Shown: piece after piece, positions 1,867 through 52,702 of the stretch
How the letters are laid out: each line of letters begins with the position of its first letter
Numbering within the stretch: the first letter of the stretch is position 1
From: Flavicella sediminum
GTDB taxonomy: Bacteria; Bacteroidota; Bacteroidia; Flavobacteriales; Flavobacteriaceae
Assembly: GCF_006381105.1 (NCBI RefSeq)
Contig: NZ_VDET01000008.1
Location: forward strand, 1 to 64,000
DNA: 64,000 nucleotides
Reading direction: 5' to 3'
Position numbers and translations under genes: made by a program
Notes under the pieces: generated by a model
Told to the model about the DNA's origin: nothing
Database searches by the model: none
Seen by the model: only the letters and a program-made list of their open reading frames with translations

Positions 1867-2177
1867 TATTTTGTGCGTTTATTAGTAATACTATGAATTG
1901 TTGTGAATGAATTATTTCGATTTATTTATTCTTTTATGAAGAGTGATGTGACCCGTAAATTTCTATTTTAGATAATCGGACATTTCGTGTATTGATTTTT
2001 TTTATGATAAGAAATGAAAAGTAGCTCTTTTACGGAAAATAGCTGCAATTCAATTCATTTTTCTTGTTCTTCCTTGTTTTATAAAGGGTTCGAACAATTT
2101 ATACCCCTAATATGATTATTGTATTGGTAGTCCTAAAAGAACAAATAAAGTAATTTTAACAAAAAAATATTATTCAG
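1867..2177. other. Intergenic region with operator-like site
   Basis: This 311-base gap separates the two sulfatase genes. It holds one copy of the GAACWAWWT motif at 2092 (annotated separately), 86 bases before the next start codon. I see no gene, no RNA and no strong terminator hairpin in the rest. Confidence 0.5.
2085..2117 (+). promoter_or_regulatory. Putative HTCS operator, site 1
   Basis: The site reads GGG, then GAACAATTT beginning at 2092, then CCCC 12-15 bases after the G, and a further GA 22 bases after the first G. It is nearly the same as the site at 52677 (both have GAACAATTT then CCCC and an A/T-rich stretch ending in ATGA). It lies 86 bases upstream of the second sulfatase. 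Binding by the HTCS at 31655-35731 is inferred from recurrence and position only. Confidence 0.5.
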
Positions 2178-3644
2178 ATGGTAAAAAAAATAGTACTCCT
2201 AAATAAGGAGATTAAAAGTATTCATGTTTTTTTGTTCATGTTATGCTTCTTTGTGTCAATTGTAAATCGAGCACAAAGTTCAGAAAAACCGAATATCGTA
2301 TTCATATTTGCAGATGATTTAGGTTTTGCGGATTTAGGTTTTACAGGTAGTGATTCTCATCTAACTCCGAATTTAGATAAGTTAAGGAAAGAGAGTGTTT
2401 ATTTTGACAATGCATATTCGTCGCACCCTACATGTTTGCCAAGTAGACTTTCGTTAATGACGGGTAAGTACCCTGCGCGGATTGGAGCTGTAAGTCATGG
2501 TAAATTAGGAGGAGTCGCTTCTGGTGATAATTCTTTGCCTTGGTCAGAAGTTACTATAGGACAGGCGCTTCAAAATGATGGGTATTATACAGGTCATATA
2601 GGGAAGTGGCATATTAGTAAAGGAGATAATAATCCTCATACTCGTGGGTTTGATGAAGATGTTGCTTCGAATGATTTTTGCTGCCCTGGAAATTACTTTT
2701 ATCCATATGAATCAGATAAAGAGTGGCAAAAAGAGATGTCTAAAATTCCAGATTTAGAAGATCGTAAACCAGGAGATCATTTAACAGATGCGCTTGGGGA
2801 AGAGGCTGTTAAGTTTATTTCTAAACAATCAAATAAAAAACCTTTTTTCTTGAATCTTTCGTTTTATGCTGTACACACACCTTTAGCAGCGAATAAAGAA
2901 AAAGTTAAAAAATATAAGGCACTAATAAATAAGAATACCCGCCAAAATAATGCCGTATATGCTGGACTAGTAGAACATTTAGATGATGCGGTAGGTAATG
3001 TGTTAAAAGCGTTAAAAGAGCATGGCTTCGATAAAAATACCGTTGTTATTTTTACAAGCGATAATGGAGGTGAAATTACGCATGGTATCACAGATAACTA
3101 CCCATTGCGAGCAGGAAAAGGCTCTTCTTATGAAGGGGGGATTCGAGTGCCTTTATTGGTGAAGTGGCCTGGGGTTACTAAAAAAGGAAGTGTTTGTAAA
3201 GAGCGAATAATTGGTTTTGATTACTATCCAACTTTATTAGAAATAGCAGGTGTTAAGGGAGATGCAAATCACAACAAACATGTTGATGGTTTAGATTTTA
3301 CAAGTTTACTAAAGAACCCTCATAAGAAATTAAAAAAGAGAGATCTGCATTGGTTGAAATATATTTCTTTAATCCATTTAAAATATCCGGTAGCAGATAG
3401 AAATAGATGTGTGGAAACAGTGATTAGTGGAGATTGGAAACTGATGCAGTTTTTTCAAATGCCAGATAATTATTCAGGACATTTTGAATTGTATAATTTA
3501 AAGAAAGATCCTTCTGAGACTACAAATTTAGCAAGTAAATACCCTAAGAAGGTTAAAAAATTATATAAGTCTATGAGGAATTGGGAAAAAGAAGTTGACG
3601 CCCCTGTCTATGATATGGAAAAATTTTACGGAGCTGCGCAGTAA
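2178..3644 (+). CDS. Secreted S1-type formylglycine sulfatase
   Basis: A second S1 sulfatase of 488 residues, clearly different from the first. A long N-terminal region ends in a hydrophobic signal segment (about residues 16-33). The metal-binding ADDLG is at 45-49, the signature C-L-P-S-R at 86-90 (Cys86 is the formylglycine site), and a TSDNGGEITHG segment later supplies metal ligands. This layout is typical of exo- or endo-acting sulfatases of carbohydrate loci. It is the first gene after operator-like site 1, and the beta-helix gene at 3678 follows after only 33 bases, so it probably heads operon A. Substrate position is unknown. An internal ATG would shorten the n-region of the signal peptide and cannot be excluded as the start. 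Confidence 0.93.
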   Translation: MVKKIVLLNKEIKSIHVFLFMLCFFVSIVNRAQSSEKPNIVFIFADDLGFADLGFTGSDSHLTPNLDKLRKESVYFDNAYSSHPTCLPSRLSLMTGKYPARIGAVSHGKLGGVASGDNSLPWSEVTIGQALQNDGYYTGHIGKWHISKGDNNPHTRGFDEDVASNDFCCPGNYFYPYESDKEWQKEMSKIPDLEDRKPGDHLTDALGEEAVKFISKQSNKKPFFLNLSFYAVHTPLAANKEKVKKYKALINKNTRQNNAVYAGLVEHLDDAVGNVLKALKEHGFDKNTVVIFTSDNGGEITHGITDNYPLRAGKGSSYEGGIRVPLLVKWPGVTKKGSVCKERIIGFDYYPTLLEIAGVKGDANHNKHVDGLDFTSLLKNPHKKLKKRDLHWLKYISLIHLKYPVADRNRCVETVISGDWKLMQFFQMPDNYSGHFELYNLKKDPSETTNLASKYPKKVKKLYKSMRNWEKEVDAPVYDMEKFYGAAQ

Positions 3645-3677
3645 ATAAACTCAGTTGGTCAAAAATAAAATCAATAA

Positions 3678-6107: not shown

Positions 6108-6177
6108 TGTGAATATAAACTAAACCTCCCTTTTGTCTTATTAAATATCAGAGGGAATTAATCTTAAAATAAAAAGT

Positions 6178-9869: not shown

Positions 9870-9933
9870 AACAGAGTTAGAAGTTTTTTATGTTCACTTC
9901 AAAGTTTTAAAACTAATTATAAATAGAAAAAAG

Positions 9934-10670
9934 ATGAAATTATTTACAAATGTTTTTCTCGGTGGGATGTTACTCTTCTTACTTGGGACTGTAAATATAT
10001 CAGCTCAAAAAAATATAGCACAATTAAATGATAAACCTCATTTTAATGAAGCGTATAGCAATATTTATACTGTAAATCTATTGGCTCAATGGCCAAATCG
10101 TAGCTATAATCATATTGATAAAATTGTTAAGGAAGGCCCCACAACACGTTGGTTAAAACCAGGAGAAAAATCTATGCCCTATTCGGTAGAAAATCCTATC
10201 GGTGGTAAATTTATTTTCAAAGAAGATTTGTCGCCTAAAGTTTTAAGTGGATTTATACGAACAGGAGATATTCGTGCGCAAGGCTATTTTTCATAATGAT
10301 TGGTGTTTTCAAGATGAATCTGTAGGTAAAATAGTTGACGAGACAGTTCAATTATTTCACTACACCCGTTATGGTATTGTGGCAAAAATTGAAAGTGTTC
10401 CGAGTTGTGTTAGACTTTTTTATGTTTTAGCAGAATTAGAAGAGCCGGGAGAATGGTATTTCGATAAAAGATGAACCTTTATATGTTTGTCTAATTGAAG
10501 GTGTTAAAACAATTCCTTTTGATAAAATAGGGTTAAAGAAAGATTCTTTTAGAGTAACTGTTCCTAATAAAGAAACATACCGAAGCAATGTTTACAATTA
10601 TGTTAAAAACGACAAAGGTGGGCGATACAATGCTCAATTAGTAAATGGTAGATATCCAAAACCAAGTTGT
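9934..10670 (+). pseudogene. Decayed, internally deleted copy of a GH141-like beta-helix gene
   Basis: A signal peptide (MKLFTNVFLGG...NISAQ) is followed by short pieces that match the 809-residue protein at 3678. Residues about 212-345 of that protein are represented, as is its C-terminus from about 750 (IPFDKIGL ... RYPKPS). The stretches equivalent to about 45-211 and 350-749 are missing. Two frameshifts break the remainder. At 10287-10291 the run has five T where the intact paralogue has four, which gives an early TAA. Near 10465 two bases are lost, which gives a TGA at 10472. No functional enzyme can be made. It sits between an intact lipoprotein and an intact DUF1080 gene, so decay is local. 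Confidence 0.85.
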
Positions 10671-10752
10671 TTTTATTTTTTAATAAAAACAAGAATATAT
10701 TATGATTTTAATCACATTAAAAAATAGAATTTAAATTAAAAATAATTGATAA

Positions 10753-12171: not shown

Positions 12172-12188
12172 TATAAAAACTTAATTTA

Positions 12189-14102: not shown

Positions 14103-14164
14103 CGTTTAATAGAGAATCTATAATTGTCATAAAAATATAATAAATCAATAATTAATTATAAAAG

Positions 14165-15652
14165 ATGAACTTAAAAACAATTAAAAAAGGTGTGCTAAAT
14201 ACTCTTTTATTAAGTATGTTGGTGGCATGTAATGAGACTGATTTAAATAAGAACTTAGTAAAAAAAAAGAATGAATATATAAGGGGAAATACTTTAGCCG
14301 AATTACAGCATGATTTTGTAAACACCAGATACCAAGCGTATTTTCATTATAATATGTGTACGTTTAAAAATTTACACTCAGACGAGTATGAAGGAAGATC
14401 AAGAGGAACAGAACCTGCTACTATGTTCTCTCCAACCGGTTTAAATATTGGTAACTGGGTAAAAGCTGTAAAAGTAGCTCGTATGGAAGGAGGTTGGTTA
14501 ACTACAAAACATCACGGAGGGTTTTGTTTATGGGATAGCTAATTTACAGATTATGATGTAAATTCATCGGGAGACAAAACAGATATAGTTCGTGAGTTTA
14601 CAACCAAATTTAGAAAGGCTGGCTTAAAAGTAGGTTTGTATTATTCTATTTTAGATTATCATCATAGTGTTGAAAACGGAAAAACTTCAGCCAAAGATGT
14701 GCAATTTTTAAAAAATCAAATAACAGAGCTTTTAACCAATTATGGTAAAATTGATTATATCAATTTTGATGGATGGAGTTCATGGCCAACTACTCCAAAT
14801 TTTGATGACGTTGCGTATGGTGAAATTTTGGGCTTGGTGAAAAAATTACAGCCAGAATGTTTGATTATTTCACATACTTATGAATCTAATTTGTCTCATG
14901 CTGAAGTACCTTTTGCAGAAGCTGCAGGTAGAAATTATCCGTATCATCCAGATTATTTACGTCCAACAGCTGCTTCTGATTTTTTACAGCGCGGATGGTG
15001 GTGGGATAATACTGATGAAATGAAAGTTAGAAAAAGTGTGGATTATATTCTAGGAAAATTAAATAGTTATAATTCTCATAATTCGGTATATATTCTTAAT
15101 ATTTCTCCTAATATAGCGGGTGATATTGATACTGATGTTTTTGTTCGATTAAAAGAAGTGGCTGATGTTTGGAAAAAACCAGCGGATATTCCTATGGGAA
15201 ATAATTGGGGTTATCAATACAACACTCAGGAAAATTTAGCATTTATGAAATCTTGTGAGCAATCAAGTATGAATAAGTTTGTTCGAGACAAAAGAGCGTA
15301 CCCAAGAGCAGAAATTGTTGTTGATGGTGTTACTGAAGGGAATGCGATGATGAAACAAACTTCTTGGACCCTTTTAGAAAATAATCCTTGGTGGCGTGTT
15401 GATTTAGGAGAGGTTTATACAGTAAATGAGATAATTATTTACAATCGTACCGATGGTATTGAGGTAAATCAGTTAAAAGATTTTACTGTTTCATTGCATG
15501 ATGCTGTAGGAAATATAGTTTGGAAATCGGTTCAAAATCAAGTTCCAATTCCTTCAGTTAAAATTCCAGTGAGTAATAAGAAGGGGCGCTTTGTGAAAAT
15601 TCAATTGAATGGTAAAGGTTCTTTGACTTTAGCTGAAGTTATTGTGAAATAA
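14165..15652 (+). pseudogene. GH29 alpha-L-fucosidase lipoprotein gene broken by one stop codon
   Basis: The reading frame from 14165 continues to 15652 with only one stop, TAA at 14540-14542, directly after CLWDS. The next residues, FTDYDVNSSGDKTD, continue the GH29 fold in the same frame. In the related gene at 42869 the equivalent stretch is W-P-S-K-Y-T-E-Y-D, so the lost codon was probably a lysine AAA. Upstream are a lipobox (L-V-A-C) and a KHHGG motif (usually KHHDG). Downstream are I-N-F-D-G-W with the putative nucleophile and a C-terminal F5/8-type domain from about 15300. As written the product is 125 residues and inactive. An ATG at 14636 would give a fragment without a signal peptide. 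A sequencing error would restore the gene. Confidence 0.85.
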
Positions 15653-15668
15653 AAAATCCAGTTAAATT

Positions 15669-15779: not shown

Positions 15780-15825
15780 GGGGGTTGAACAAAATGAAGC
15801 CTAAATAAGAACATTTTGAGAGCCC
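15780..15825 (+). promoter_or_regulatory. Putative HTCS operator, site 2, with tandem half-sites
   Basis: GGGGG then TTGAACAAAATGAAGCC (GAAC at 15787) is followed by a second copy GAACATTTTGAGAGCC beginning at 15809, exactly 22 bases further on. This is the clearest direct repeat of the six sites and fits an AraC-type regulator contacting the same face of the helix two turns apart. It lies 126 bases before ATG 15913. Confidence 0.55.
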
Positions 15826-15912
15826 TTTTGTCTTTATAATATGTCCAAATTTGAAGAATACTTATTTCTAATGAATAAGTGTTATTTAATTAAAAACTTA
15901 ATATTATTAATT

Positions 15913-16312
15913 ATGAGAAAAAGATTACAAACTTCAGTTTTTGTTGTGGGGGCATTATTAACAGTTCAAATGTCCTTTGGGCAATCAGTTGCTGTGCCAT
16001 TGTCTAACGCTACAGGTGGTGCAGGTAATTATCCAACGTCAAGAAATGATCCTAATTATGTGATCAATGATGCTTTTGCTTACGACTTAAACAGTCTTGC
16101 TGACACTTATCCTGATACCGATGCATCAGGAACAGATAATTATTTTATCTCAGATAATACAGCTGCCTATAATTGGTGGAAATGTGACATCGCTATTCCT
16201 TCTGGAAAAACCTTAAAATATTTAGAGTTGTATACAAGGAAAGGTATTGTCATAAATAGTAGAACCTACTAATAGATATTTTGACTTAAAAATAACGTTG
16301 CATGATGGTTAA
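15913..16312 (+). pseudogene. Truncated, frameshifted secreted F5/8-type C domain protein
   Basis: ATG 15913 gives a good signal peptide (MRKRLQTSVFVVGALLTVQM, cleavage near SFGQ). An in-frame ATG at 15841 would add 24 residues and is less likely. The product reads as a discoidin-like domain (AYNWWKCDIAIPSGKTLKYLELYTRK) and stops at 16270-16272. In the +1 frame the domain continues as TNRYFDLKITLHDG at 16268-16309, before another stop at 16310. The phrase LHDG is the usual F5/8 continuation; compare DFTVSLHDAVGN in the broken GH29 protein. The gene is therefore frameshifted near 16267 and also lost its 3-prime part. An intact version would be a secreted carbohydrate-binding protein. Confidence 0.7.
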
Positions 16313-16752
16313 ATAAAAGAAGCTAATTGTTTTCGTATATGAAATTTACTAAGGGTATTATAAAAATTAAGTTTGAGTAAATTATTAATGGAACTTGAGA
16401 GGTAGTTTTGAATTATTACTTGTTAAAACAATTGAAAACACTAGGGTTGTGTTTTTTTTGAACAAATTTTCATCCAAATAGGAATATATGTTATCCTTGA
16501 TAACCATAAAAGTTGGCATCTTTGAATAATTGAAAAAAGAAATCAAGTTAAGACTATTATTAAACTAGCCTTAATAAGAAGTTTACTTTCGTCAAAACAA
16601 TAATTAATATTAACTAAACTAAAACTGATTTGAAACAAAACCAATGTTATTACACGGTGAGTGTATTGAAAAAAAATAAAGTAAACCCTTTTGGGAGATA
16701 TTTAATACTTCCATAATATTTATTAACCAATTTATTTAAATACTAAAAAAAT
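16313..16752. other. Leader region of the SusC/SusD operon
   Basis: This stretch of 440 bases has no coding frame I can support. It contains operator-like site 3 at 16454-16490 and is AT-rich throughout. It probably holds the promoter and a long untranslated leader for the lipoprotein and SusC/D genes. I cannot identify a convincing -7 box. Confidence 0.4.
16454..16490 (+). promoter_or_regulatory. Putative HTCS operator, site 3
   Basis: GAACAAATTTTCATCC begins at 16460, and a partial second half-site GAATATATG begins 22 bases later at 16482. The upstream GGG of other sites is replaced by a T run. The site lies 293 bases before the lipoprotein start at 16753, the longest distance of the six, so it is less certain. 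Confidence 0.38.
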
Positions 16753-31654: not shown

Positions 31655-34600
31655 TTATTTTTCACTTTGTTCGTTGAATTTTTTCGCAAAACTAGAAGGA
31701 GACATACCGTAAATTTGTTTAAAACATTTACTAAAGTATTTTGGATCGTTAAATCCAGTCATTATGCAAATTTCCGAAATTAATAAGCCTGAATTTTGTT
31801 CTATTATTTGTGCTGCTCTTTTTAGTCTGTAATTTCTTATAAATTCATTGGAAGACATGCCCGTTAATTGTGTTAGTTTTCGGTAAAGAACAGAGTGACT
31901 CATATTCATTTCTTTTTTAAATGTATGAGCGGTAAAATCTGGGTCGTTAAAATGTTGGTCTAAAACTTCATAGGCTTTAAGTACAAAAACGTCATCAATA
32001 GAATCTAAATTTGTGTTTTCGGGAATAAAATCAAGTTTGGTTTTAGATTTTTCTGATATTTTTTTATTAGTTTCAATAATGTTTGTGATTTTAGATTCTA
32101 AGATGGCATAACTAAAAGGTTTTTTTATGTAATCGACCGCTCCAATATTTAAACCGTTCATTTTAAATTCATCGGATGACCATGCACTTAAGAATAGAAA
32201 AGGAATATGGTTGGTGTCTTCATTCTTTTTAACTTCTTTACAAAACTCTACTCCGTCCATTATGGGCATAAAAGTATCGCTTAAAATTAAGTCAGGAATA
32301 TGTTTTTTAGCCATGTCAAGTCCTTCTTTACCATTAGAAGCCTCTATTACTCGAAATTTCTGAGACAGGGATTGTATAACATAAGAACGAATATCAAAAT
32401 CGTCTTCTACGACTAATATTTTTGGAGTACTTTTATTATGGGTTTTAATCGTATTTGTCGTTTTCGTATTTTCTTCTTTATCTATCGTTATTGGCTCTAA
32501 AGGAGGGCGCTCTACTATTTCATTTCTAATGTTTTCCGAATTGTAAAAATCTTTTTTAATAGGAAGTGTCAATGAGAATGTCGACCCTTTGTTTATTTGA
32601 CTCTCAACATTAATTAAACCTTTGTGTAATTTTGTCAATCTATTCACATAGTCTAGGCCAATTCCTGCACCATTTGGATTTAATGATTTTGCTGAGGTTA
32701 CTTGATAGAAGCCTTCAAAAATTTTGGATAATTTGTCTTCGGGGATTCCTATGCCGCTATCTTTAATATTTATAACAACCTTTTCTTTTGTATCGTCGTA
32801 ATAACTTAAAATTATAGAAATGCTTCCTTCTTTTAAAGTGAATTTAAAAGCATTTGAGAGTAGATTGTAAATTATTTTTTCAATTTTATCTTCGTCAACC
32901 CAGCCCATCATTACTTCTTCTTCCTTTATAAATTTAAAGGTGATATTATGTTGTATGGCAAATTCGTGAAAAACGGTCGTTGTTTCTTCAATGCATTTCA
33001 CAAGGTTTTGATTTGAAACTTGTAAGCTTAAGGTATCTCCTTCAATTTTACTAATGTCTAATATTTGATCTACTAAGCGTAGCAATCTGAAAACGTTTTT
33101 ATTGATTAATTTTAATAAATGATAGTCGTAATTGTCTTTTTCCTTGTTGTTGTTAATTAGTTGGGAAACGGGGTCTGAAATTAAAGTTAGAGGCGTTCTT
33201 AATTCATGAGAAATATAGGTAAAGAAACGAATTCTCATTTGGTTAAAATCTTCCTCATTTTTCAGTTTTAAACGTTGTAATTCATTCTCGTTTTTCTGTT
33301 TGGTACTTATAATCGTGTATTTGTTGTAGTAATAAAGTACGAGAACAAAAAGAAGTAACATTAATAATTTGAACCACCAAGTAGCGTAGAATGGAGGTGC
33401 AATACTGATGTTTAACGATTTTATTTGATCTTCAGAATTGCTATTGTATAATTTTACTTTGAACGTGTAATTTCCGTGGTTTAAATTAGTAAATCCAATT
33501 GACCTATTAGTTCCTAAATTAGCCCAATGATCCATATATCCTTCTAAGATATAAGTATATTTGTTATGACCTTCATTGTTAAAGTCTAAAGCAGCATATT
33601 CTATAGAAAAATCGTTTTGATTAGCCTGAAGTTTTAATTGGGTTGTATTATTTAAACTTTTATTTATAGGAGAATCTGCTTTGTTGATATCAATAATTTG
33701 ATTGTCAATTTTTAAATTTGAAAAAACGATATCGGTAGGTTCAGGGATTTTATTTAGACTTTTAGGGTTAAAAACAACCAAACCTTCAGAACCTCCAAAT
33801 CCTAAGGTGTTATCAGGTAAAACTACACTAGCTTTTGGTTGAAATTGACTAGATGGTAATTTATGGGATATTATAGAATTGTCAAATGTTTTGGCCGTTT
33901 TATTGAATTTCACCAATCCTTTAAAAGTGCTAACCCAAAAAATGTCTCCTTGCGGTATTAAACTAGAAACAAAATTATTAACCAATCCATCTTCTTGTGT
34001 GTAAAATGTGTATGTTTTGGTATTGGCTTGTAAATAGCCCATTCCTTTTCCTTGCGAACAAAACCAAATAATATTTTCATCATCATCTATATGTACCTCT
34101 GTAATGGGAGTAGAAATTAGGGTATTAGAATAGAAGTATTCGAACATTTCTGTATTGGGATTAAAAATAGAAACTCCTCCCATGGTTGCAATTACAAAGT
34201 TGCCGTTTTTTGCGAGTTTAATATCTCTTACTTCTATATTTCCAAAGTTTGTAAAGCTGTCATCTTTAGGATTGTATCGATTCAATCCTTTTTGTGTACC
34301 AATCCATAAATTATTGTGCTCATCTTCCATAAAAGCATAAATTTTATCATCATTTATACTGTGTGAATTCCCTGGTTTATGTTTGTATTGTTTAAAACTA
34401 GCCTTCTTTTTATCTAACAAATTAAGACCTCCTGAGTAGGTTCCAAACCACATACGTCCTTTGTAATCTTCAATAATTGTTGTGACAGTATTGAAACTTA
34501 GAGAATTGTTGTTTTGTTGTTGATGAGTGTATGAATTATAGGTTTTTGTTTTGGGATTGTATACGCTAATTCCTCCTAATGTACCAAACCATAGCTGCTC

Positions 34601-35731
34601 ATTACTATCTAAATAGACACTTCTTACTCTGCTTTCAATAATACTATTGGAATCATGTGTTTGATGCTTGATTACTTTAAAGTCACGTTTTTTAGAGGTA
34701 TTATAACCGACACCAGTTCCATAAGTACCAATCCATAAAATACCATCTCTATCTTCATAAACAGTGTACAGCGCATTTGTAGCAATACTTTGCCTGTGAT
34801 TAGAATTGTAGAGGTAATTTGTGAATGTATTATTTTTTGTGTTTATTTTTGAGAGTCCTCCTCCATTTGTAGCTACCCAAATACCATCTTCTTTTGTCTG
34901 AAAAATGTCATAAATTTCATTGTGTTGAAGTAAGCTGTTTTTTGTGTTGTAATTTATAAAATGCTCACCAAAATAGGGCAAATATGAAATGCCACCAAGG
35001 GCCGTTCCTACCCATAAATCACCATTTGCACTTACGGAAAGTGCTTTTATTGTATTTCCAGAAAGTGTATTGGGTATAGCTGTTTTATGAAAATAATTTA
35101 CAAACTGTTTGTTTTTTTTATTGAAATGATTCAATCCATTTTCTGTGCCAATCCAAAGTTCATCTTTGTAGCTAGCTAACGAAATGACTTCTGAGTTTGA
35201 CAGTGAATTAACTTTACTAGAATTATACCTGTAATGTTCTATGATCCCTTCTTTTTTATGATATAATATCAAGCCTTCTGACGTTCCTAGCCAAATTTGT
35301 GAATTATCTTCTTCTTCAATGCAATTTATTCGAATATTTAGACTGAAATTTGGGAATAATTTGTGATGTGTAACCTGTTCATTGATAGGGTTGTAAGATT
35401 TTATACCGTTATCAGTTCCAATCCATAAAATACTATCATTGTCCTCATATAGATCAAAAACTATGTTGCCAGTTGGTATTTTTAATTGATGATTTCTAGT
35501 ATTTATAACTTTAATATCATAGCTGTCATATCGGTTCAGTCCATCATCAGTACCAAACCATAAAAAGCCCGATTTGTCCTTTAAAATTGTATTTACCGTG
35601 TTTTGTGATAAACCGTCCGCAGTAGTAATTGTATTGAAATCAAATTCCGATTGATCTTCTATATATTGTGCACTAGCTATAGTGATATGAAAAAAAGAGA
35701 AAAGTAAAAACTTTAATGAGTTGTGGAGCAT
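31655..35731 (-). CDS. Hybrid two-component system sensor/regulator (HTCS)
   Basis: A 1358-residue one-protein two-component system. After a signal peptide (about 1-22), residues about 25-690 form periplasmic propellers of Reg_prop repeats (for example GFLWFGTDDGLNRYD, ILWIGTDNGIKSYNP). A Y_Y_Y domain lies at about 700-775 and a single transmembrane helix at about 780-802. The histidine kinase HisKA motif F-x-x-x-x-S-H-E-L-R-T-P has His842, followed by ATPase motifs NLLSNAFKFT, DSGIGIPEDK and GAGIGL. The receiver has Asp1152 in ILSDTFMPIMDG, and the C-terminal AraC-type HTH covers about 1265-1355. Such proteins bind an oligosaccharide in the periplasm and activate PUL genes directly. It is the only regulator in the window, and the six GAACWAWWT sites are candidate targets. 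Confidence 0.96.
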   Translation of the reverse strand: MLHNSLKFLLFSFFHITIASAQYIEDQSEFDFNTITTADGLSQNTVNTILKDKSGFLWFGTDDGLNRYDSYDIKVINTRNHQLKIPTGNIVFDLYEDNDSILWIGTDNGIKSYNPINEQVTHHKLFPNFSLNIRINCIEEEDNSQIWLGTSEGLILYHKKEGIIEHYRYNSSKVNSLSNSEVISLASYKDELWIGTENGLNHFNKKNKQFVNYFHKTAIPNTLSGNTIKALSVSANGDLWVGTALGGISYLPYFGEHFINYNTKNSLLQHNEIYDIFQTKEDGIWVATNGGGLSKINTKNNTFTNYLYNSNHRQSIATNALYTVYEDRDGILWIGTYGTGVGYNTSKKRDFKVIKHQTHDSNSIIESRVRSVYLDSNEQLWFGTLGGISVYNPKTKTYNSYTHQQQNNNSLSFNTVTTIIEDYKGRMWFGTYSGGLNLLDKKKASFKQYKHKPGNSHSINDDKIYAFMEDEHNNLWIGTQKGLNRYNPKDDSFTNFGNIEVRDIKLAKNGNFVIATMGGVSIFNPNTEMFEYFYSNTLISTPITEVHIDDDENIIWFCSQGKGMGYLQANTKTYTFYTQEDGLVNNFVSSLIPQGDIFWVSTFKGLVKFNKTAKTFDNSIISHKLPSSQFQPKASVVLPDNTLGFGGSEGLVVFNPKSLNKIPEPTDIVFSNLKIDNQIIDINKADSPINKSLNNTTQLKLQANQNDFSIEYAALDFNNEGHNKYTYILEGYMDHWANLGTNRSIGFTNLNHGNYTFKVKLYNSNSEDQIKSLNISIAPPFYATWWFKLLMLLLFVLVLYYYNKYTIISTKQKNENELQRLKLKNEEDFNQMRIRFFTYISHELRTPLTLISDPVSQLINNNKEKDNYDYHLLKLINKNVFRLLRLVDQILDISKIEGDTLSLQVSNQNLVKCIEETTTVFHEFAIQHNITFKFIKEEEVMMGWVDEDKIEKIIYNLLSNAFKFTLKEGSISIILSYYDDTKEKVVINIKDSGIGIPEDKLSKIFEGFYQVTSAKSLNPNGAGIGLDYVNRLTKLHKGLINVESQINKGSTFSLTLPIKKDFYNSENIRNEIVERPPLEPITIDKEENTKTTNTIKTHNKSTPKILVVEDDFDIRSYVIQSLSQKFRVIEASNGKEGLDMAKKHIPDLILSDTFMPIMDGVEFCKEVKKNEDTNHIPFLFLSAWSSDEFKMNGLNIGAVDYIKKPFSYAILESKITNIIETNKKISEKSKTKLDFIPENTNLDSIDDVFVLKAYEVLDQHFNDPDFTAHTFKKEMNMSHSVLYRKLTQLTGMSSNEFIRNYRLKRAAQIIEQNSGLLISEICIMTGFNDPKYFSKCFKQIYGMSPSSFAKKFNEQSEK

Positions 35732-36321
35732 TTTAAAGAATGAATTATGCTTGCTTGCTAACAGTAGGTTTTAAAAATAGAGTGATAAATTCACTGATAT
35801 TTCAGCTACTGTTTAGATTAATAAAATTTGTTTGATTCCGATAAGTGAATAGAATATAAAGATACAATTTAATATTAATTTAATAAAAAAAAGAAATTGG
35901 TTTTATGAAAGACTACTTTAGGATATTGTCGTGAATTGATCTAATTAACTTAACTACAATTGTATGTTTCTATGATTTAATTTTACAAAAAAAAGTTGCT
36001 GTAAACACTATTCCACTAGGCTTTGAGTGGTAATTATGTGAAGTGAAATAGAATAAGAAATACTGAGGTTTGCTTAGCGTTCATTCTTGTATCTGTGGTG
36101 CATGTGTACTCTCCAAAGCTGCTTTTTGAACAAAATAGACACCAATTAAAGTATTGTGTCTACCTCTATTGTTCGATTTATCAGGTAATTTGATATTGGA
36201 GTAAATAGGTTGTTTTCTATAAACGATTTACAAATGCCATTCGTGAAAAAATAGGTGAGATAGTTCTGCTGGAATAGTTTATTTTTTCAAATATTAATTT
36301 AATAAAGGTTTCCGTTTAAGT
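35732..36321. other. Divergent promoter region between HTCS and the GH3 operon
   Basis: These 590 bases contain no gene I can support. The only structured element is operator-like site 4 at 36123-36162, on the GH3 side. The HTCS side, within 150 bases of its start, has no copy of the motif, so the regulator gene may not control itself. Confidence 0.5.
36123..36162 (+). promoter_or_regulatory. Putative HTCS operator, site 4, overlapping an inverted repeat
   Basis: TTTGAACAAAATAGACACC has its GAAC at 36128. TAGACAC at 36136-36142 pairs with GTGTCTA at 36156-36162 around 13 bases, so an inverted repeat overlaps the second half-site. The site lies 194 bases before the GH3 start. Confidence 0.42.
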
Positions 36322-38805
36322 ATGAGAATTTATACGTTTTTTAGCTATTTACTAATTGGTTTGTTTCCGCTGTTAATTGGAGCACAAGTTGTTTCTAACA
36401 AAGTTGTTAATAAAGTAAACCCCAAGAGAATTTATCATCGTAAATGGATAGATTTCAATAAAAATGGAATCAAAGATGTCTATGAAGATCCATTACAATC
36501 TGTTGAGAGAAGAATAGAGAATCTTTTATCTCAAATGAATTTAGACGAGAAAAGTTGTCAAATGGCAACTATATATGGTTATGGTAGGGTTTTAAAAGAT
36601 GAATTACCAACACCAAATTGGAAAAATGAAATTTGGAAGGATGGAATTGGAAATATGGATGAACAGCTTAATAATTTAGCATATCATCCAAAGTCGGCAA
36701 CAGACAAGGCTTGGCCTCCTTCAAATCATTTAAAAGCATTGAATGAAATTCAGAAGTTTTTTATTGAACAAACACGTTTAGGGATTCCAGTAGATTTTTC
36801 AAATGAAGGTATTCGAGGTTTGTGTCATGAAAAATCTACCAGTTTTCCTGCACAGATAGGAGTGGGGTCAACATGGAATAAAAAATTAGTAAGTCAGATT
36901 GGTCAAATTACAGGTAGAGAAGCAAAACTGTTAGGGTATACCAATGTATATGCACCTATTTTAGATATCGCACGTGATCCAAGATGGGGTAGAACGGTAG
37001 AGTGTTATGGTGAAGATCCTTATTTGGTTGGAGAATTAGGGTACAATATGGTGAAATCTATACAGGAGGAAAATGTAGTGTCTACTCCAAAACATTTTGC
37101 TATTTACAGTGCTCCAAAGGGAGGTAGAGATGGTGACGCTCGAACGGATCCGCATATAACAGAAAGAGAGCTGTTTTCATTATACCTTTATCCTTTTAAA
37201 AGGGCTGTAAAAGATGCAGGAGCTATGGGAATTATGAGTTCTTATAATGATTATAATGGTGTGCCAGTCTCTTCTTCTAGTTATTTTTTAGAAGATATTT
37301 TACGAGATACATGGGGTTTTAAAGGGTATGTAGTTTCCGATAGTCGTGCAGTAGAATTTATAGCCGATAAACATCATGTTGCTAAAGATCGTAAAGACGC
37401 GGTACTAAAAGCAGTGAATGGCGGACTTAATATCAGAACCGATTTTACAATGCCAGAAGATTATATTTTACCTGTTCGAGAGTTGGTAAAAGAAGGTTCT
37501 TTAAGTGTGGAAGTTGTAGATAGTCGTGTACGTGATATATTAAGAGTAAAGTTTTGGCAAGGCCTTTTTGATGCGCCTTATAGAATAGATTTTAAGACAG
37601 CTGATAAAACGGTTGCAAATGATTCTTTTCAAAAAGTGTCCTATCAAGCTTCTTTGGAATCTATTGTTTTGTTGAAAAATGAAAACAATATGTTGCCTTT
37701 AGATTTAAATAATTATAAATCCGTTTTAGTAACGGGCCCAAATGCAAAAGCAACGAATCATTCGGTAAGTCGTTATGGCCCCTCTAATATTGATGTCATT
37801 TCTGTTTATGAAGGAATTAAAGAAAAATTCACAGATAAGGTAGAAATTAAGTACACAAAGGGTTGTGATTTTTTTGATGCCAATTGGCCAGAAAATGAAC
37901 TTATGAATATAGCGCCAACACAATCAGATCAAGAAGAGATTGATAAAGCCGTGGAAATAGCTAAAACAGTTGGATTGGCTATTGTAGTTGTTGGTGATGA
38001 CGAAGAGACAGTAGGAGAGTCTCGATCAAGGACTTCTTTAAACTTACCTGGAAATCAACAGCGCTTAGTTGAAGCAATTTACAATACAGGTACACCTGTT
38101 GTTGTTGTATTGATTAATGGTAGGCCGCTTTCTATAAATTGGATTGATAAATATGTGCCTGCCGTTGTAGAAGGTTGGTTTCAAGGTAAATTTGGAGGCG
38201 CAGCTATTGCTGATGTGTTATTAGGAACTTATAATCCTGGTGGTAAGCTGCCTGTGTCATTTCCTAAAACGGTAGGACAAATACCTATGAATTTTCCAAC
38301 CAAACCTGGGGCTCAGGCCAATCAACCTTCAGGAGGACCAAACGGTTTTGGTAAAACACGTGTGGGAGGATTTCTTTATCCTTTTGGCTATGGTTTGAGC
38401 TATACAAAATTTGAGTATCGAAATTTAAAAGTAGTTTCTAAAATAAATTCAGGGAAAGGGAATATGCTTGTTACGGTAGACGTTACAAATACAGGTAAAG
38501 TTAAAGGGGATGATGTGGTACAGCTGTATTTTTCCGATATGCAATCTTCTATCACCGTTTACGAAAAACAACTAAGAGGTTTTGAACGAATATCCTTAGA
38601 ACCTAATGAAACAAAAACGGTGAAATTTCATTTAAAACCAGAAGATTTAGCATTGTATAATCAAAATATGGATTTTGTTTTGGAGGCAGGTGATTTTGAA
38701 ATTATGATCGGTAGTTCTTCTGAAGATATAAAATTAAAGCAAAAAATACATGTAAAAGATGCGGTGTTATTGAGTAAACAAATAAAAATGTCTGCATCTA
38801 AATAA
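36322..38805 (+). CDS. Secreted GH3 beta-glycosidase (beta-glucosidase/xylosidase type)
   Basis: An 827-residue exported enzyme. The signal peptide (about 1-21) is followed by DFNKNGIKDVYEDP (residues 44-57), an EF-hand-like start that recurs in this GH3 subgroup. The (beta/alpha)8 domain contains KHFA at 257-260 and GYVVSDSRAVE, where Asp340 is the predicted nucleophile (usual context SDW; here SDS). The second domain holds LAIVVVGDDEETVGESRSR, and the last 120 residues, from about 700, form a fibronectin III-like domain. It is the first gene of operon D. GH3 exo-enzymes remove terminal beta-glucose, xylose or N-acetylhexosamine. Which sugar is cut here is not clear. Confidence 0.92.
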   Translation: MRIYTFFSYLLIGLFPLLIGAQVVSNKVVNKVNPKRIYHRKWIDFNKNGIKDVYEDPLQSVERRIENLLSQMNLDEKSCQMATIYGYGRVLKDELPTPNWKNEIWKDGIGNMDEQLNNLAYHPKSATDKAWPPSNHLKALNEIQKFFIEQTRLGIPVDFSNEGIRGLCHEKSTSFPAQIGVGSTWNKKLVSQIGQITGREAKLLGYTNVYAPILDIARDPRWGRTVECYGEDPYLVGELGYNMVKSIQEENVVSTPKHFAIYSAPKGGRDGDARTDPHITERELFSLYLYPFKRAVKDAGAMGIMSSYNDYNGVPVSSSSYFLEDILRDTWGFKGYVVSDSRAVEFIADKHHVAKDRKDAVLKAVNGGLNIRTDFTMPEDYILPVRELVKEGSLSVEVVDSRVRDILRVKFWQGLFDAPYRIDFKTADKTVANDSFQKVSYQASLESIVLLKNENNMLPLDLNNYKSVLVTGPNAKATNHSVSRYGPSNIDVISVYEGIKEKFTDKVEIKYTKGCDFFDANWPENELMNIAPTQSDQEEIDKAVEIAKTVGLAIVVVGDDEETVGESRSRTSLNLPGNQQRLVEAIYNTGTPVVVVLINGRPLSINWIDKYVPAVVEGWFQGKFGGAAIADVLLGTYNPGGKLPVSFPKTVGQIPMNFPTKPGAQANQPSGGPNGFGKTRVGGFLYPFGYGLSYTKFEYRNLKVVSKINSGKGNMLVTVDVTNTGKVKGDDVVQLYFSDMQSSITVYEKQLRGFERISLEPNETKTVKFHLKPEDLALYNQNMDFVLEAGDFEIMIGSSSEDIKLKQKIHVKDAVLLSKQIKMSASK

Positions 38806-38847
38806 CCCGAAAATCATAAATTATTATACATAAAACAGAGAATAAAA

Positions 38848-40311: not shown

Positions 40312-40350
40312 TTATAGTATATACAGCCCTCCGATTTGTTTTAATAGTAG

Positions 40351-40394: not shown

Positions 40395-40468
40395 ATTATT
40401 TTAAAAGGAGTCTATCAAGTAGTTAATTCGGAAGTAAAACACAACTAATTGAAAAACGAAGTATTCTA

Positions 40469-42820: not shown

Positions 42821-42868
42821 TTGTTCTCTATTTAAAAACAATAATAAGCATTCTAAATAAGGAATTAA

Positions 42869-43996: not shown

Positions 43997-44024
43997 TAAC
44001 AAAAGAATTCTAAAAAATAATCGA

Positions 44025-46256: not shown

Positions 46257-46331
46257 AAAGAATAATATGATAACGTTTTGTATTTAACAATATGAAATTT
46301 ATAAAATATTAATATTAAAAAATAAGAAGAT

Positions 46332-47213: not shown

Positions 47214-47236
47214 AATTCACCTAATAATCAACATAT

Positions 47237-48049: not shown

Positions 48050-48681
48050 TTGTATATTTTATTATTGTAATTAAAAAGTTATTAATTTAGTCCTATATGG
48101 TTAAATTATGGAGTGGAAGAGATGAAATTGCTATATTGGACAGATCATTGATTTCTATCTTAGATTAAACTATTGTGGTGGGTAATTAAATACTTATTTT
48201 AAAGTGAAAAAATACGATAAATTATAAATGTCTAAATCTCTTTGAGACCTTTTATCTATTAAAAAAAAGACTAATTTGAAAAGAATATTTATCAGAATTA
48301 AAAGATATATCAAATTATTGGTGTTGATATTAAATCATACAGCATAGCATAAAAAGGCTGAATTTTTTTGACATTGTAATATTTGTAATTATGAAAAATC
48401 TGTCACTTCAAACACCTTGATTGATAGGGGGAAAACAATCATATAGTTATTATAACTGTATTTTCAAGTAAAATAAAGTATTATAATTTATATCGAAGCT
48501 GATTAATAGTTATGTCTAATTTTGAAGTCATTAGAAAACAGGCCCTCAAAATCGGGATATATCTTTCAAAAAAAAATGTTCGTCTTTTACAACATTCGTA
48601 ATTATACTCGTTTTTTCAATATTTAAATTAATGCAGCTCAATATTTATGCATATTGAATAAAATATGAACAAAAAAGAGAA

Positions 48682-48712
48682 GGGATTGAACTATTTACAA
48701 CCGCTTTGAAAT
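48682..48712 (+). promoter_or_regulatory. Putative HTCS operator, site 5
   Basis: GGGATTGAACTATTTACAACC has GAAC at 48688 and CC 13-14 bases later. It directly abuts and partly overlaps the -33 element of the promoter at 48705, as expected for an activator. The gene start is 147 bases downstream of the GAAC. Confidence 0.48.
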
Positions 48713-48732
48713 GAATAGTTATGCTAATTTTG
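48705..48732 (+). promoter_or_regulatory. Bacteroidota-type promoter
   Basis: TTTG at 48705-48708 and TAATTTTG at 48725-48732 fit the TTTG / TAnnTTTG consensus with a 16-base spacer. The predicted transcript starts near 48740, leaving a leader of about 95 bases before ATG 48835. Confidence 0.45.
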
Positions 48733-48834
48733 AAAATATCTTTATGAAGAATTATATAAAAATGAATACAAAATTCTGTTTTCTAATTTTATTGGAATCT
48801 TCGAAAATTATATTAACCAATTTAAATCATTATT

Positions 48835-49632
48835 ATGAAATTAAAATTATTTTCGCTGTTCGTAGCAACTAGTTTGTTATCAAGTATTGAAGCTAGTGCT
48901 CAAATTTCTTATTTTATCGACTTTGGAAATGCCACTGTTGAAACAAGTTATATATCAGTTACAGATGATACAGACTATACTGTAGATGCTCTTGGATATG
49001 GTTGGCAATCTGGTGATGTAGGACATACGAATGCTACAGACAATGGAATTGCAAATGGACAAACTGATTTAACACGTGACTTTTGTGCAGGAGGTCCTTA
49101 TGGTATTTACTACCACGATGTCGAGCTTGATACTTACCAAGTAACAATGTATTTTTTAGACGTTGTAGATCGAAAAATAGGTCTTAATACTAGGCCAAAT
49201 GGTGTACAGGCAGAACAATTTACCGATTACGAAATCCCTGCTAACACTCTAAAGACTAAAGTTTTTACAGTTAATACAGGTACTAATCCACAAATGCTAT
49301 TTGGTTTTTTTAACAGAGCAGGAGATGGAGGACAATGGCTTTGTAACGGTATTGATATTGTACCTACCTCTACTTTATCTATTGAACAAGCGGTTGAAAA
49401 AGGATTTATGATGTATGATGTATTCGGAAAGCAAGAATTTAAAGTAAAGTTACCTTCTGGTAAAGGTACTTTAACTCTTTTTGATATTACAGGAAGAGTC
49501 GCTTTAACTGCTGATTTAAATACAGTAGACAATACAATTGATACTTCTTCTCTGGCATCAGCTATTTATGTTGCTAAAGTGGTTTCTGAAAAAGGACTTG
49601 TTACTAATAGAAAAGTTGCTTTAAGACAATAA
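48835..49632 (+). CDS. Type IX-secreted protein with putative carbohydrate-binding domain
   Basis: A 265-residue protein with a signal peptide (about 1-22, ending ASAQ). It has a central beta-sandwich (residues about 24-175, ISYFIDFGNATVETSY ... QWLCNGIDIVP) similar in style to malectin-like or lyase-associated binding modules. A type IX secretion sorting domain covers the last 80 residues (MMYDVFGKQEF ... NRKVALRQ). It is expected to be exported to the surface or medium. No catalytic residues are evident, so a carbohydrate-binding role is likely. It is first in operon E and has a strong promoter-operator region, which suggests high expression. The exact fold is not recognised. Confidence 0.65.
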   Translation: MKLKLFSLFVATSLLSSIEASAQISYFIDFGNATVETSYISVTDDTDYTVDALGYGWQSGDVGHTNATDNGIANGQTDLTRDFCAGGPYGIYYHDVELDTYQVTMYFLDVVDRKIGLNTRPNGVQAEQFTDYEIPANTLKTKVFTVNTGTNPQMLFGFFNRAGDGGQWLCNGIDIVPTSTLSIEQAVEKGFMMYDVFGKQEFKVKLPSGKGTLTLFDITGRVALTADLNTVDNTIDTSSLASAIYVAKVVSEKGLVTNRKVALRQ

Positions 49633-49642
49633 AATAAATAAA

Positions 49643-49670
49643 TATAATAGACAAAATGGTGTCTATTATA
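49643..49670 (+). promoter_or_regulatory. Perfect hairpin between the binding protein and propeller genes
   Basis: TATAATAGACA at 49643-49653 is perfectly complementary to TGTCTATTATA at 49660-49670, around the loop AAATGG. No T run follows, so it is more likely an mRNA-stability or processing element that sets unequal expression of the two genes than a true terminator. Confidence 0.45.
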
Positions 49671-49698
49671 TCTAAAAACCTAAATCAGTGTTATTTAT

Positions 49699-51453
49699 AT
49701 GAAAAATAGTAAAAAAAATAGAACTAAATATACTTCAATAGCTAGAAAGGAATCAAGTATAATGATATTAATTCTAACCCTTTTTTGTTGTCATAATTCT
49801 TTTGCTCAAAAAGGCAATGATCCAGCAAAAATGTCTTTTAAAGGTTTTATATGGCCTAATCATACACCTGGAGAATCCCCATTTGAGCAGTCTGATGATT
49901 TTAAAACACTATATTTTACAGGAAAAAATAGCGATTATTATGTTGGAGACACATTTTTTCCTACATGGGCTTCTAACGGCAATCTTTATTCTCCTTTTGC
50001 AGATGGTACTACAGATGGCGCAACTAGTTATTCTGCAGACCCAACTTCTTCAACAGGAAATGTTGTGATGATAGGAGATGATCCTCAATATTTAGAGATT
50101 AAGAATACTGCACGTCCTCAAAAGGCAAAAGCCTTTCCTTATGGTGGCCGCTACCCTGGTGGCAGCTTGGTTCATAATGGGATCTGGTATTATGGTACTT
50201 ATTTGTTGGGGGTAACAAAAACAACTGTGGATGATGGTTACAGCTTTGGCTGGCCTATTTTAGGACCTATGCCAGGTTTTAGAACCTCTAAAGATTATGG
50301 AAAAACATGGACACCATCTCCTTTATCTCCTGAAAAACCACTCTTTCCAGAGCCTAAAGAAATATTTGATCCCGTAAAAATGGGAGCACCCCATTTTGTT
50401 GATTTTGGAAAAAATATGGAACATTCTCCAGATGGTAAAGCCTATATGGTAGGTATGGGAGCTGAAGAAAATGACCCAATGCCTCGATTTGCTAATTTAA
50501 GTTGGATAGCTGCAGATCAAGTGTATTTAACTAGGGTTACGCCATCTATTGAAACTATTAATGATATAAAAGCTTATGAGTTTTTTGCTGGGCATGACGC
50601 TAACGGGAAACCTAAATGGACAAATAATTTTGATGAAATTAAACCTTTGATAGAATGGAATAATCATATGGGATGTGTAACCATGACTTACAATGCGCCA
50701 CTAAAAAAATACTTTATGTGCGTTACAGATGGCTGGAGATCTCGTTCAAACATGGACTCTTATATATTAGAATCCGATGCTATCACTGGCCCATGGAAAA
50801 TGGTTACCTACATGAAAGAATTTGGTACTCAAGGCTATTTTTTAAATTTCCCATCTAAGTTTATTAGTGATGATGGTAAAACGATGTGGCTTAGTTATTC
50901 TGGAAATTATGGAGCACATAGGAAATTGCCTCGTAACCCACCACATGGAAGATATGGCATGGGGTTATATGAAGTGAAATTATTAGGAGATGAGAAGCAA
51001 CAATTTGAAGCTACACAAGCGTGGGAAGATTCAAAAAACATTGCTGGAAAAGCAACAATTACTGCTAGTTCTACATTAAAAAACACCTCAACAAGTACGT
51101 TAAATAATGGTAAAGTTTGTCAACATAAAAATAACATTACTGATCATTGGATATCTAATGAAGAAGAAGAAGCTTGGATAAAACTTAGTTGGGATAAACC
51201 TCAAATTATAAATGCGGTTAGGTTATTTAATTGTGAAAATAAAGAAGATTTAGAAAAATTTGGTAAGATACTGTTAAGCAATGGTCGAGAAATCCCTATC
51301 AGATGTCCGCTTCCTAATTCAGAATTAGATGGATTAGATATTTTTTGGGGAAGAAAGGAAAAGGTAGATTGGATTAAGATTATTTTTGATCGCAGTAAAC
51401 CTAAATCAGCCAGTTTTAGCCTTTCGGAAATAGCTGTTTTTAACGCTGAATAG
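49699..51453 (+). CDS. Secreted propeller-type putative glycoside hydrolase with C-terminal sandwich domain
   Basis: A 584-residue protein. A hydrophobic signal segment lies at about residues 20-36 (ending NSFAQ) after a basic leader of about 18 residues, and an internal ATG near residue 22 could be the real start. Residues about 40-430 show propeller-type repeats (VGDTFFPTWASNGNLYSPF, GYSFGWPILGPMPGFRTSKDYGKTW, SRSNMDSYILESDAITGPWKMV), similar to DUF4185/sialidase-like proteins and possibly GH43-clan enzymes. Residues about 440-584 form a galactose-binding-like domain. I do not recognise a CAZy family. It is the second gene of operon E, after the small hairpin at 49643, and the terminator at 51559 follows. 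Confidence 0.62.
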   Translation: MKNSKKNRTKYTSIARKESSIMILILTLFCCHNSFAQKGNDPAKMSFKGFIWPNHTPGESPFEQSDDFKTLYFTGKNSDYYVGDTFFPTWASNGNLYSPFADGTTDGATSYSADPTSSTGNVVMIGDDPQYLEIKNTARPQKAKAFPYGGRYPGGSLVHNGIWYYGTYLLGVTKTTVDDGYSFGWPILGPMPGFRTSKDYGKTWTPSPLSPEKPLFPEPKEIFDPVKMGAPHFVDFGKNMEHSPDGKAYMVGMGAEENDPMPRFANLSWIAADQVYLTRVTPSIETINDIKAYEFFAGHDANGKPKWTNNFDEIKPLIEWNNHMGCVTMTYNAPLKKYFMCVTDGWRSRSNMDSYILESDAITGPWKMVTYMKEFGTQGYFLNFPSKFISDDGKTMWLSYSGNYGAHRKLPRNPPHGRYGMGLYEVKLLGDEKQQFEATQAWEDSKNIAGKATITASSTLKNTSTSTLNNGKVCQHKNNITDHWISNEEEEAWIKLSWDKPQIINAVRLFNCENKEDLEKFGKILLSNGREIPIRCPLPNSELDGLDIFWGRKEKVDWIKIIFDRSKPKSASFSLSEIAVFNAE

Positions 51454-51558
51454 AAATTTCAATACTCTAATCGCATTATTTATGAGTGGTTTGTACAGGG
51501 TGTCTTAAATAAAGGTACTTGAGAAACAGCAGCCAACTGAAAAGTATAATTATACTAT

Positions 51559-51594
51559 AAAAGGATCAGAATTTTAAAAATTCTGATCCTTTTT
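51559..51594 (+). terminator. Rho-independent terminator of operon E
   Basis: AAAAGGATCAGAATTTT at 51559-51575 is followed almost immediately by its perfect complement at 51577-51593 and T residues. It is GC-poor but long and lies 106 bases after the propeller gene. Confidence 0.8.
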
Positions 51595-51648
51595 GTGTTT
51601 TTAGTTATGCTATCACAACAACAGACTTTATCTCTTAGTGTATATAGT

Positions 51649-51912
51649 TCAATTTATCATTTCCATATCTGCAATGATATCTTGCTGAAAGTTCTTTATA
51701 AACTCCAGTTCTTCAATTCGTTCCTTTAATTTTTTAATTTGGTCTAGTTTGCTCATACCTGTGTTTTGTTGTTGCAAAGTACAGTGATTTTTTAACCAAT
51801 AGGAACAGTAGATCTAGAAATATTAAATTTTTTGGTTGCTAAGTTAACCGAGGTCTGTCCATTTAGAATTTGGTCAATGACGAATAATTTGTACTGAAAA
51901 GTAAATTTTTCC
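51649..51912 (-). pseudogene. Degenerate IS3-family transposase OrfA remnant
   Basis: On the minus strand, bases about 51912 to 51795 read KFTFQYKLFVID, then LNGQTSVNLATKKFNISRST. This is the helix-turn-helix start of an IS3/IS150-type OrfA and ends at a stop. A separate minus-strand frame at 51756-51649 reads MSKLDQIKKLKERIEELEF and ends in 16 more residues, a leucine-zipper-like coiled coil that normally follows the helix-turn-helix. The two pieces are in different frames, and no OrfB or clear terminal inverted repeats are seen. It is a decayed insertion-sequence scar lying next to the esterase remnant. Confidence 0.62.
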
Positions 51913-51996
51913 TAGTTCTTTTTTTGACAGGGTTGATTTTGTTTTGTGTCCAAAGTATTGCTAAAAGTGTTTAATTTTTAGTCAACCTATTTTTAG

Positions 51997-52419
51997 GAAA
52001 TTTCAGCAGGAGGTCAATTAGCATCAACGCTTGTTGTTAGAGGCTACGATGAGACTCGTCCCAATTTTAAAATTTTAATGGTTCCTGTAATTTCTATGAT
52101 TGAGAATTATAAACATCAAGGATCTTGTAATCAATTATTAGGTAAAAAACCATCAAAACAGGCTATGCACTACTACTCAAATAGCTTGCATGTGTCTTCT
52201 AAAACACCGAAATCTTTTGTAATTGCAAACAATGATGATAGAGTAGTATCCTCTTTAAATGCAATGAATTACGTAGCGGCATTAAGGAGAAATAACGTGT
52301 TTTCAGAGTTTCATCTTTTTCCGAAAGGAGGGCATGTAGGATTGTTATATAGTACACATCCGTATAAAAATCAAGCTCTAGGTTTACGCAAAAAATGGAT
52401 GAATACCTATGTTAAATAA
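51997..52419 (+). pseudogene. C-terminal remnant of an alpha/beta-hydrolase esterase
   Basis: The open frame begins after a stop at 51994 and reads EISAGGQLASTLVVRGY, which contains the S-A-G-G nucleophile elbow of acetyl-xylan-type esterases. The C-terminal half follows: IANNDDRVVSSLNAMNYVAAL (acid region) and HLFPKGGHVGLLYS (catalytic His). The N-terminal half, including a start codon and signal peptide, is missing. The IS3 remnant lies just upstream, so insertion followed by deletion is the likely cause. An ATG at 52078 would give only 113 residues without the nucleophile. An intact copy would deacetylate a polysaccharide. Confidence 0.72.
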
Positions 52420-52459
52420 AATCAAAAAAACAACTAGGAATCGAGTTTTTCTATAAAAT

Positions 52460-52498
52460 AAAAGTCTTCTAAAAGTAATTTTTTTAGAAGACTTTTTT
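52460..52498 (+). terminator. Rho-independent terminator after the esterase remnant
   Basis: AAAAGTCTTCTAAAA at 52460-52474 pairs with TTTTAGAAGACTTTT from 52482 around a short loop, followed by T residues to 52498. It probably belonged to the lost esterase operon. Confidence 0.8.
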
Positions 52499-52671
52499 AT
52501 GCCTATTGTTTTTCTGATGTTAGAATTCTTAATTTTTTGACTAAAACGGGATAAGCATCATCATTTTTTAATTTAATAGAGTTTCTTTTTCTTAGTACCT
52601 GAAGAGATATTTAGCAGATTTATACTTACTTATTTTTAACGAAAATAGGTTAGGAATTGTTGTTTTTACAA

Positions 52672-52702
52672 GGGGTGAACAATTTGTCCCCATAAAATGA
52701 AA
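52672..52702 (+). promoter_or_regulatory. Putative HTCS operator, site 6
   Basis: GGGGTGAACAATTTGTCCCC begins at 52672 with GAAC at 52677. It is nearly identical to site 1. The surrounding GGGG and CCCC also form a small inverted repeat. It lies 77 bases before ATG 52754, or 119 before the possible start at 52796. Confidence 0.52.

Follow-up and report, generated by a model that had tools for sequence, protein, structure and literature searches.

The locus raises the question of which regulator, if any, acts through a short sequence word that recurs ahead of its operons. The window, i.e., the whole stretch of 64,000 nucleotides analysed here, comprises the opening 64 kb of contig C76 in a genome of 4.58 Mb. 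By Pfam, it contains sulfatases, alpha-L-fucosidase-family genes, beta-helix/GH141-like, GH3, and GH88-like genes, two SusC/SusD-type pairs, and one HTCS. Based on this gene content, the cluster is probably a locus for a fucan-type sulfated polysaccharide. The HTCS gene (31655-35731, minus strand) encodes 1358 aa with a Reg_prop propeller, Y_Y_Y, HisKA, HATPase_c, a receiver, and an AraC-type HTH (Pfam), and its product is the presumed regulator. Orthologues that are 55-78% identical were found in five of 396 other genomes searched (E<=1e-250) of the family that holds the window genome, Mariniflexile, and Flavivirga, which we take to be the Flavobacteriaceae. These five genomes are G326, G023, G251, G173, and G006, and 65-80 kb round each locus were compared.

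The earlier note listed six sites, and all six are present where it placed them (2092, 15787, 16460, 36128, 48688, and 52677). They share GAAC, an A at base 6, a T at base 9, and a C at base 15. The statistics of this short word depend on how strictly it is written. The loosest pattern, GAACNANNTN5C, occurs 10 times in the window against 6.52 expected, and at least 10 matches were obtained in 14 of 100 shuffles, which is not significant. GAACWAWWTN5C occurs 8 times against 2.34 expected, a count reached in 0/100 shuffles. Six of these eight matches are intergenic and on the plus strand (the noted sites), and the other two are on the minus strand within genes. Genome-wide, the bare word has 126 matches versus 133 for a backwards control, i.e., it stands at background, and the expectation that it would be limited to the PUL was not borne out. 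The GGG said to lie ahead of the site was over-read: it stands before three of the six box 1s in the window (boxes are defined below) and before 1/20 in relatives, and precedes 8/137 intergenic plus-strand GAAC words across all six regions.

The short word covers just one half of the element, namely box 1 (GAACAAWWT...C). This is followed by a looser box 2 at +21/+22 and, about 57-59 bases past the start of box 1, by a -7 box that resembles the TAnnTTTG of Bacteroidetes; the second box and the promoter spacing were absent from the earlier note. The spacing between boxes is +21 or +22 in 26 aligned operators, which agrees with the direct-repeat form given for HTCS operators in passages of PMC3878776. 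The repeat is clear at 15787, 48667, G023 13234, and G251 23232, the last two being nearly perfect tandem repeats, and degenerate at 2092 and 52677. Offset self-similarity on the six window sites alone did not reveal the repeat, which emerged from the comparison of relatives.

All six window elements, which we refer to as operators 1-6, are on the plus strand. Operator 1 (2092-2158) has box 1 at 2092-2107, a degenerate box 2 at 2114 (+22), and the -7 box TAATTTTA at 2151-2158. It precedes sulfatase 2178, and its counterpart at G326 4497 precedes the orthologue of that sulfatase. Operator 2 (15787-15853) has box 1 at 15787-15802, box 2 GAACATTTTGAGAGCC at 15809-15824 (+22), and the -7 box CAAATTTG at 15846-15853. 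The gene behind it starts at 15913 by homology, the ORF start at 15841 not being the true one, and related elements lie ahead of orthologues at G326 23616 and G023 13234. Operator 3 (16460-16524; box 1 16460-16475, box 2 16481-16496 at +21, -7 box CATCTTTG 16517-16524) precedes the operon with SusC/SusD pairs (16753 on). Operator 4 (36128-36193; box 1 36128-36143, box 2 36149-36164 at +21) precedes the GH3 operon at 36322 and has a variant -7 box, TAATTTGA, at 36186-36193. Operator 5 (48667-48732), before 48835, has box 1 at 48667-48682, box 2 at 48688-48703 (+21), and the -7 box TAATTTTG at 48725-48732. The site first noted at 48688 is thus not a first box, but the downstream half of an operator whose box 1 is at 48667. 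From this start the -7 box falls at +58, as in the other operators, and the same start was chosen by a matrix trained without the window's own genome. Operator 6 (52677-52742) has box 1 at 52677-52692, a degenerate box 2 at 52699 (+22), and the -7 box TAGTTTTA at 52735-52742. It precedes the operon at 52754, and its counterpart in G326 (C47:105232) precedes a copy of that operon with a first gene 80% identical. The six operators occupy 6/11 window gaps of more than 100 bp that precede plus-strand ORFs. The five such gaps without an operator, and the weak box 2 of operators 1 and 6, count against reading the elements as operators.

The distance to the -7 box is nearly fixed. Over 29 sites, a set that holds three low-scoring sites as well as 48667, picked with its -7 box in mind, the mean match to the -7 box peaks at +58 (3.69 of 6, shuffle mean 1.98), with 3.17 at +57 and 2.97 at +59; a smaller excess of 2.79 at +49 counts against the operator reading. 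Among GAAC-pattern sites, a -7 box (at least 5/6 matches) lies at +57 to +59 in 12/18 intergenic sites versus 0/17 sites within genes (Fisher 3e-5), and each of the remaining 19 offset bins holds 0 or 1 of the 18 intergenic sites. This test used 48688 as first noted, and that site fails in it. Of the six intergenic sites that fail, four (those before GH3 genes in three genomes, plus G326 1133) match 4/6 of the -7 box; the GH3 sites among them read TA-n-TTTG or close to it, one base shorter. The -7 box of the GH3 operon in the window, TAATTTGA, has this shortened form, as do most of its counterparts in five genomes. A promoter class of F. psychrophilum, TAnnTTGY, is one base shorter as well, according to passages of PMC9723704. 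Simple gapped patterns of GAAC plus TAnnTTTR were tried as a definition of the element and rejected as unspecific (36 matches in the own genome versus 53 in the backwards control).

A near-constant distance to the -7 box is also what would be seen if the element were a part of the promoter itself or of a leader RNA, with no dedicated regulator. We consider this highly improbable. The element lies upstream of the predicted transcription start, and Rfam gave 0 matches across the window at gathering score, both of which argue against this reading. Passages of PMC7366714 describe the ordinary promoters of this group by the -7 box, the -33 region being weak or undetected, and not by tandem boxes of 40 bp.

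The element is conserved together with the HTCS. All five genomes with an orthologous HTCS carry it, ahead of the same GH3 and SusC operons. The sites in these relatives were located by a pattern search and by a matrix whose 15 seed sites included six window sites. Matrix matches of 15 or more in relatives all fall between genes on the plus strand, upstream of an ORF of that strand. Operator 4 has the strongest footprint: in an ungapped alignment of six genomes at the GH3 operon, identity is 0.71 in box 1, 0.65 in box 2, and 0.77 in the -7 box, with flanks at background identity (0.30 both upstream and downstream). For operator 3, at the SusC operon, the footprint across six genomes is 0.74 in box 1 and 0.54 in box 2, with flanks of 0.35 and 0.34; the -7 box reaches only 0.45 because its offset varies between sites. 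The three named loci are L051 (Mariniflexile sp. AS56), which is one and the same locus as G326, and two that were outside the training set, L052 (Flavivirga rizhaonensis) and L053 (F. amylovorans). In these two, the element stands to the divergent side of the HTCS gene, with scores of 32.0 and 28.3. Conservation before orthologous genes does not extend to every orthologous operon: in G173 and G006, for example, the relatives of 52754 have no matrix hit of 6 or more immediately upstream. We also found no minus-strand site ahead of the HTCS gene in the window that would suggest autoregulation; in G251 and G023 the matrix scan gave weak sites on that strand.

A matrix trained on 14 sites from four other genomes, without the own genome, scores 16 or more in the window at exactly the six known operators. 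In 200 shuffles the mean was 0.255 hits of 16 or more, with a maximum of 3. The test is not fully independent, since window seeds had helped to find the sites in relatives. When the matrix was run over 377 kb of the own genome, taken mainly from the surroundings of HTCS genes and in two cases from those of model hits, the operators ranked 1, 3, 5, 6, 7, and 11; the reversed-sequence control in the same 377 kb reached 27.1, 20.3, 18.4, and 16.5, which counts against the operator reading. A profile model, R1, was built from 26 of the 29 sites, leaving out the three low-scoring ones (G326 20660, G251 15440, and G173 3337). In the own genome (best 150 of 10,971 candidates scored), the six window sites, which were in the R1 training set, are the sole matches with E<0.01, and the next is at 0.026. 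On the question of equal density in unrelated DNA, which the earlier note had raised as a refutation, the bare word fails; the full element of two boxes and a -7 box does not. At E<=1e-3, the six orthologue-bearing genomes gave 30 R1 hits, 26 of them training sites and four new; the 10 genomes without a close orthologue gave none at that threshold, their best being 0.00125 (best 150 candidates per genome in both cases). A second model, R2, had no sites of the own genome or of G326 in its training set. Its own-genome hits were 36128 (7.9e-8), a remote site before a GH97 gene (0.0057), and 16460 (0.128); four of the six window sites were missed at E<=1, which counts against the operator reading. 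In G326, it reported 4/6 of that genome's training-set sites at E<=1. Operator 4 at 36128 is the top own-genome match of both models (best 150 candidates scored for R1). A chance likeness of short AT-rich words would account for the loosest form being no commoner than in shuffles and for the bare word standing at genome background. Given the cross-genus footprint with flanks at background, the promoter spacing, and the shuffle test, we regard chance as exceedingly improbable.

The earlier note read the sites as an operator of the locus HTCS, and the comparison supports this reading. On sequence grounds, the six elements are very probably activator operators of the HTCS at 31655-35731, because of the tandem 21/22-bp repeat, the near-fixed place relative to the promoter, the co-conservation with the orthologous HTCS, and the similar sites next to related HTCS genes. 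Once activated, the HTCS would place two AraC-type domains in tandem, one on each box, 21-22 bp (two helical turns) apart and on one face of the DNA. With the -7 box set at -12 to -5, following passages of PMC9723704, and lying at +57 to +59 from box 1, box 2 would span roughly -49 to -34 and box 1 roughly -70 to -55, which would bring the proximal domain over the -33 region. Transcription starts are predicted near 2163, 15858, 16529, 36198, 48737, and 52747, and counted from these the proximal site would cover the -35/-33 region at a fixed phase. This is the usual place of a class-II activator, and the proximal domain could recruit sigma-A RNA polymerase from there, in keeping with how AraC proteins and class-II activators generally work. 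Binding by this HTCS would presumably be controlled by phosphorylation and lead to activation, with a fucan oligosaccharide as the likely inducer.

The elements might instead serve a different regulator, for example a second HTCS, a Crp-like protein, or an AraC protein encoded at some other locus. At least 13 further HTCS-like genes are present in the genome, and similar sites adjoin three of them, so cross-binding is possible. Still, we think another regulator rather unlikely. The operators cluster round this HTCS in six genomes with the recognition helices kept alongside, the asymmetric tandem 21/22-bp form suits HTCS operators (passages of PMC3878776), and no DNA-binding regulator domain besides that of the HTCS was found in the Pfam-scanned window ORFs of at least 100 aa.

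The preferred regulator, the locus HTCS, can be compared with its relatives at the recognition helices. MSHSxLYRKL and FNDPKYFSKCF are kept in 6/6 HTCS orthologues and differ in the own-genome paralogues compared. The own genome has 13 other HTCS matches at E<=1e-100, and all 13 regions were scanned with the matrix. Sites of 16 or more were found in three of them (L122, L131, and L133), and among the 10 regions in which the helix was read, NDxKYF occurs only in these three, an association drawn post hoc from a small sample. L125 (SDPKYF) has a weak site (10.9), and the other nine HTCS regions, three of them without a helix read, have nothing above 10.5. L112 and L116 (NDxKYF) and L138 of genome G001 (SDLKYF) also fit the pattern; the scores of these three loci, and of L134 and L135, are not independent because the loci were fetched for a model hit there. 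We tentatively propose, as a possibility that falls somewhat short of even, that Flavobacteriaceae HTCSs with a second recognition helix of [N/S]DxKYF share one operator grammar, that the helix predicts operators genome-wide, and that GH97-like genes keep the operator when moving between the PUL and remote places. In this same tentative proposal, the grammar would consist of tandem boxes spaced by 21-22 bp, which begin with an (A/G)AnCAAT-like word and end C-rich, and of a -7 box at +57 to +59; the 5' word would be the main difference.

The suggestion that the operator could be used to find further members of the regulon holds up, with one plausible new member. A remote element in the own genome (C12:1840927; L134:4931) was reported by R1 (E 0.061) and R2 (E 0.0057), and is followed by a GH97 gene, a sulfatase 58% identical to that of 2178, and a melibiase-like gene. 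The remote GH97 shares 65-66% identity with genes that the element immediately precedes in the G023 and G251 loci. The training sets of R2 and of the matrix include these two GH97 promoters, and the remote hit therefore reflects conservation of orthologous promoters and is no blind prediction. In G006, the GH97 orthologue (68%) is in the locus behind another gene, with no element of its own seen. No HTCS match at E<=1e-100 was found near the remote GH97 operon on C12, where the contig ends 8 kb on. The GH97-sulfatase operon is a plausible further member of the regulon.

Elements away from the main locus were also found at G173 C63:25749 (E 0.0046) and G023 C1:65961 (E 0.0028), each before a gene about 61% identical to 6178. 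An element at G251 C1:300313 (L114 at about 7314; E 1.3e-6) lies before ECF-sigma-like, FecR-like, and SusC-like genes, whose functions, except for the SusC match, were read by eye from the sequence. It perhaps links an HTCS to an ECF cascade. Another new R1 hit, G023 32780, adjoins another HTCS, and a tandem element on the minus strand at G251 C1:4485963-4486029 (L115 9964-10030; E 1.1e-4) has no clear same-strand gene downstream. New hits at an ECF-sigma set, at another HTCS, and without a clear target count against the operator reading. Behind the G251 4485963 element lies a gene related to the sugar transporter at 61928 in the window.

The element is of a known kind, as direct-repeat operators averaging 21 bp were predicted for 16 Bacteroides HTCSs (Ravcheev et al., 2013; PMC3878776, in passages of that paper). 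As in those passages, there is a two-site direct repeat upstream of PUL operons with a linked HTCS, and related HTCSs have related motifs. The sequence, the family (Flavobacteriaceae), and the substrate are different here, and box 2 is often degenerate. The near-fixed distance to the -7 box shown here is not given in the passages of PMC3878776. HTCS proteins of B. thetaiotaomicron with a receiver and an AraC domain bind susC promoters under the control of phosphorylation, as demonstrated by gel shift in passages of PMC11253607; the protein here is of the same type, and its binding is predicted from sequence. The TAnnTTTG -7 box of Bacteroidetes sigma-A promoters (passages of PMC7366714 and PMC9723704) follows most operators here, with box 2 sitting in the place of the -33 region and the TA-n-TTTG form of the GH3 operon one base shorter. 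Among the papers listed from a largely open-access literature, we recognised no description of an HTCS operator in a Flavobacteriaceae fucan locus. The earlier note's "undescribed" stands for this sequence in the papers searched, but not for the kind of site; this set of sites appears to be new. The result is a precise, testable map of predicted operators and promoters for the regulon of a fucan-type PUL in Flavobacteriaceae, and one candidate member lies on a different contig. It suggests how the HTCS may be positioned with respect to RNA polymerase, on which the passages of the HTCS papers are silent. If the link between helix and operator word is true, orphan PUL operons could be assigned to regulators from sequence.

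Within the window, an alpha-L-fucosidase-family gene is interrupted at 14165-15652. Its two ORFs (14165-14542 and 14636-15652) are in one frame and jointly align over 495 aa (83%) with one intact G326 gene, so an in-frame stop splits the gene. At 9934-10667 are pieces of a beta-helix family gene. The alignments to G326_8655 cover residues 3-53, 208-335, and 756-813 only, and most of the gene is therefore missing. The gene behind operator 2 (15913-16272) is short, with homology to residues 1-121 of a 292-aa G326 protein, and the operator is intact. An isolated 113-aa piece of a peptidase S9 domain at 52078-52419 is probably a gene remnant.
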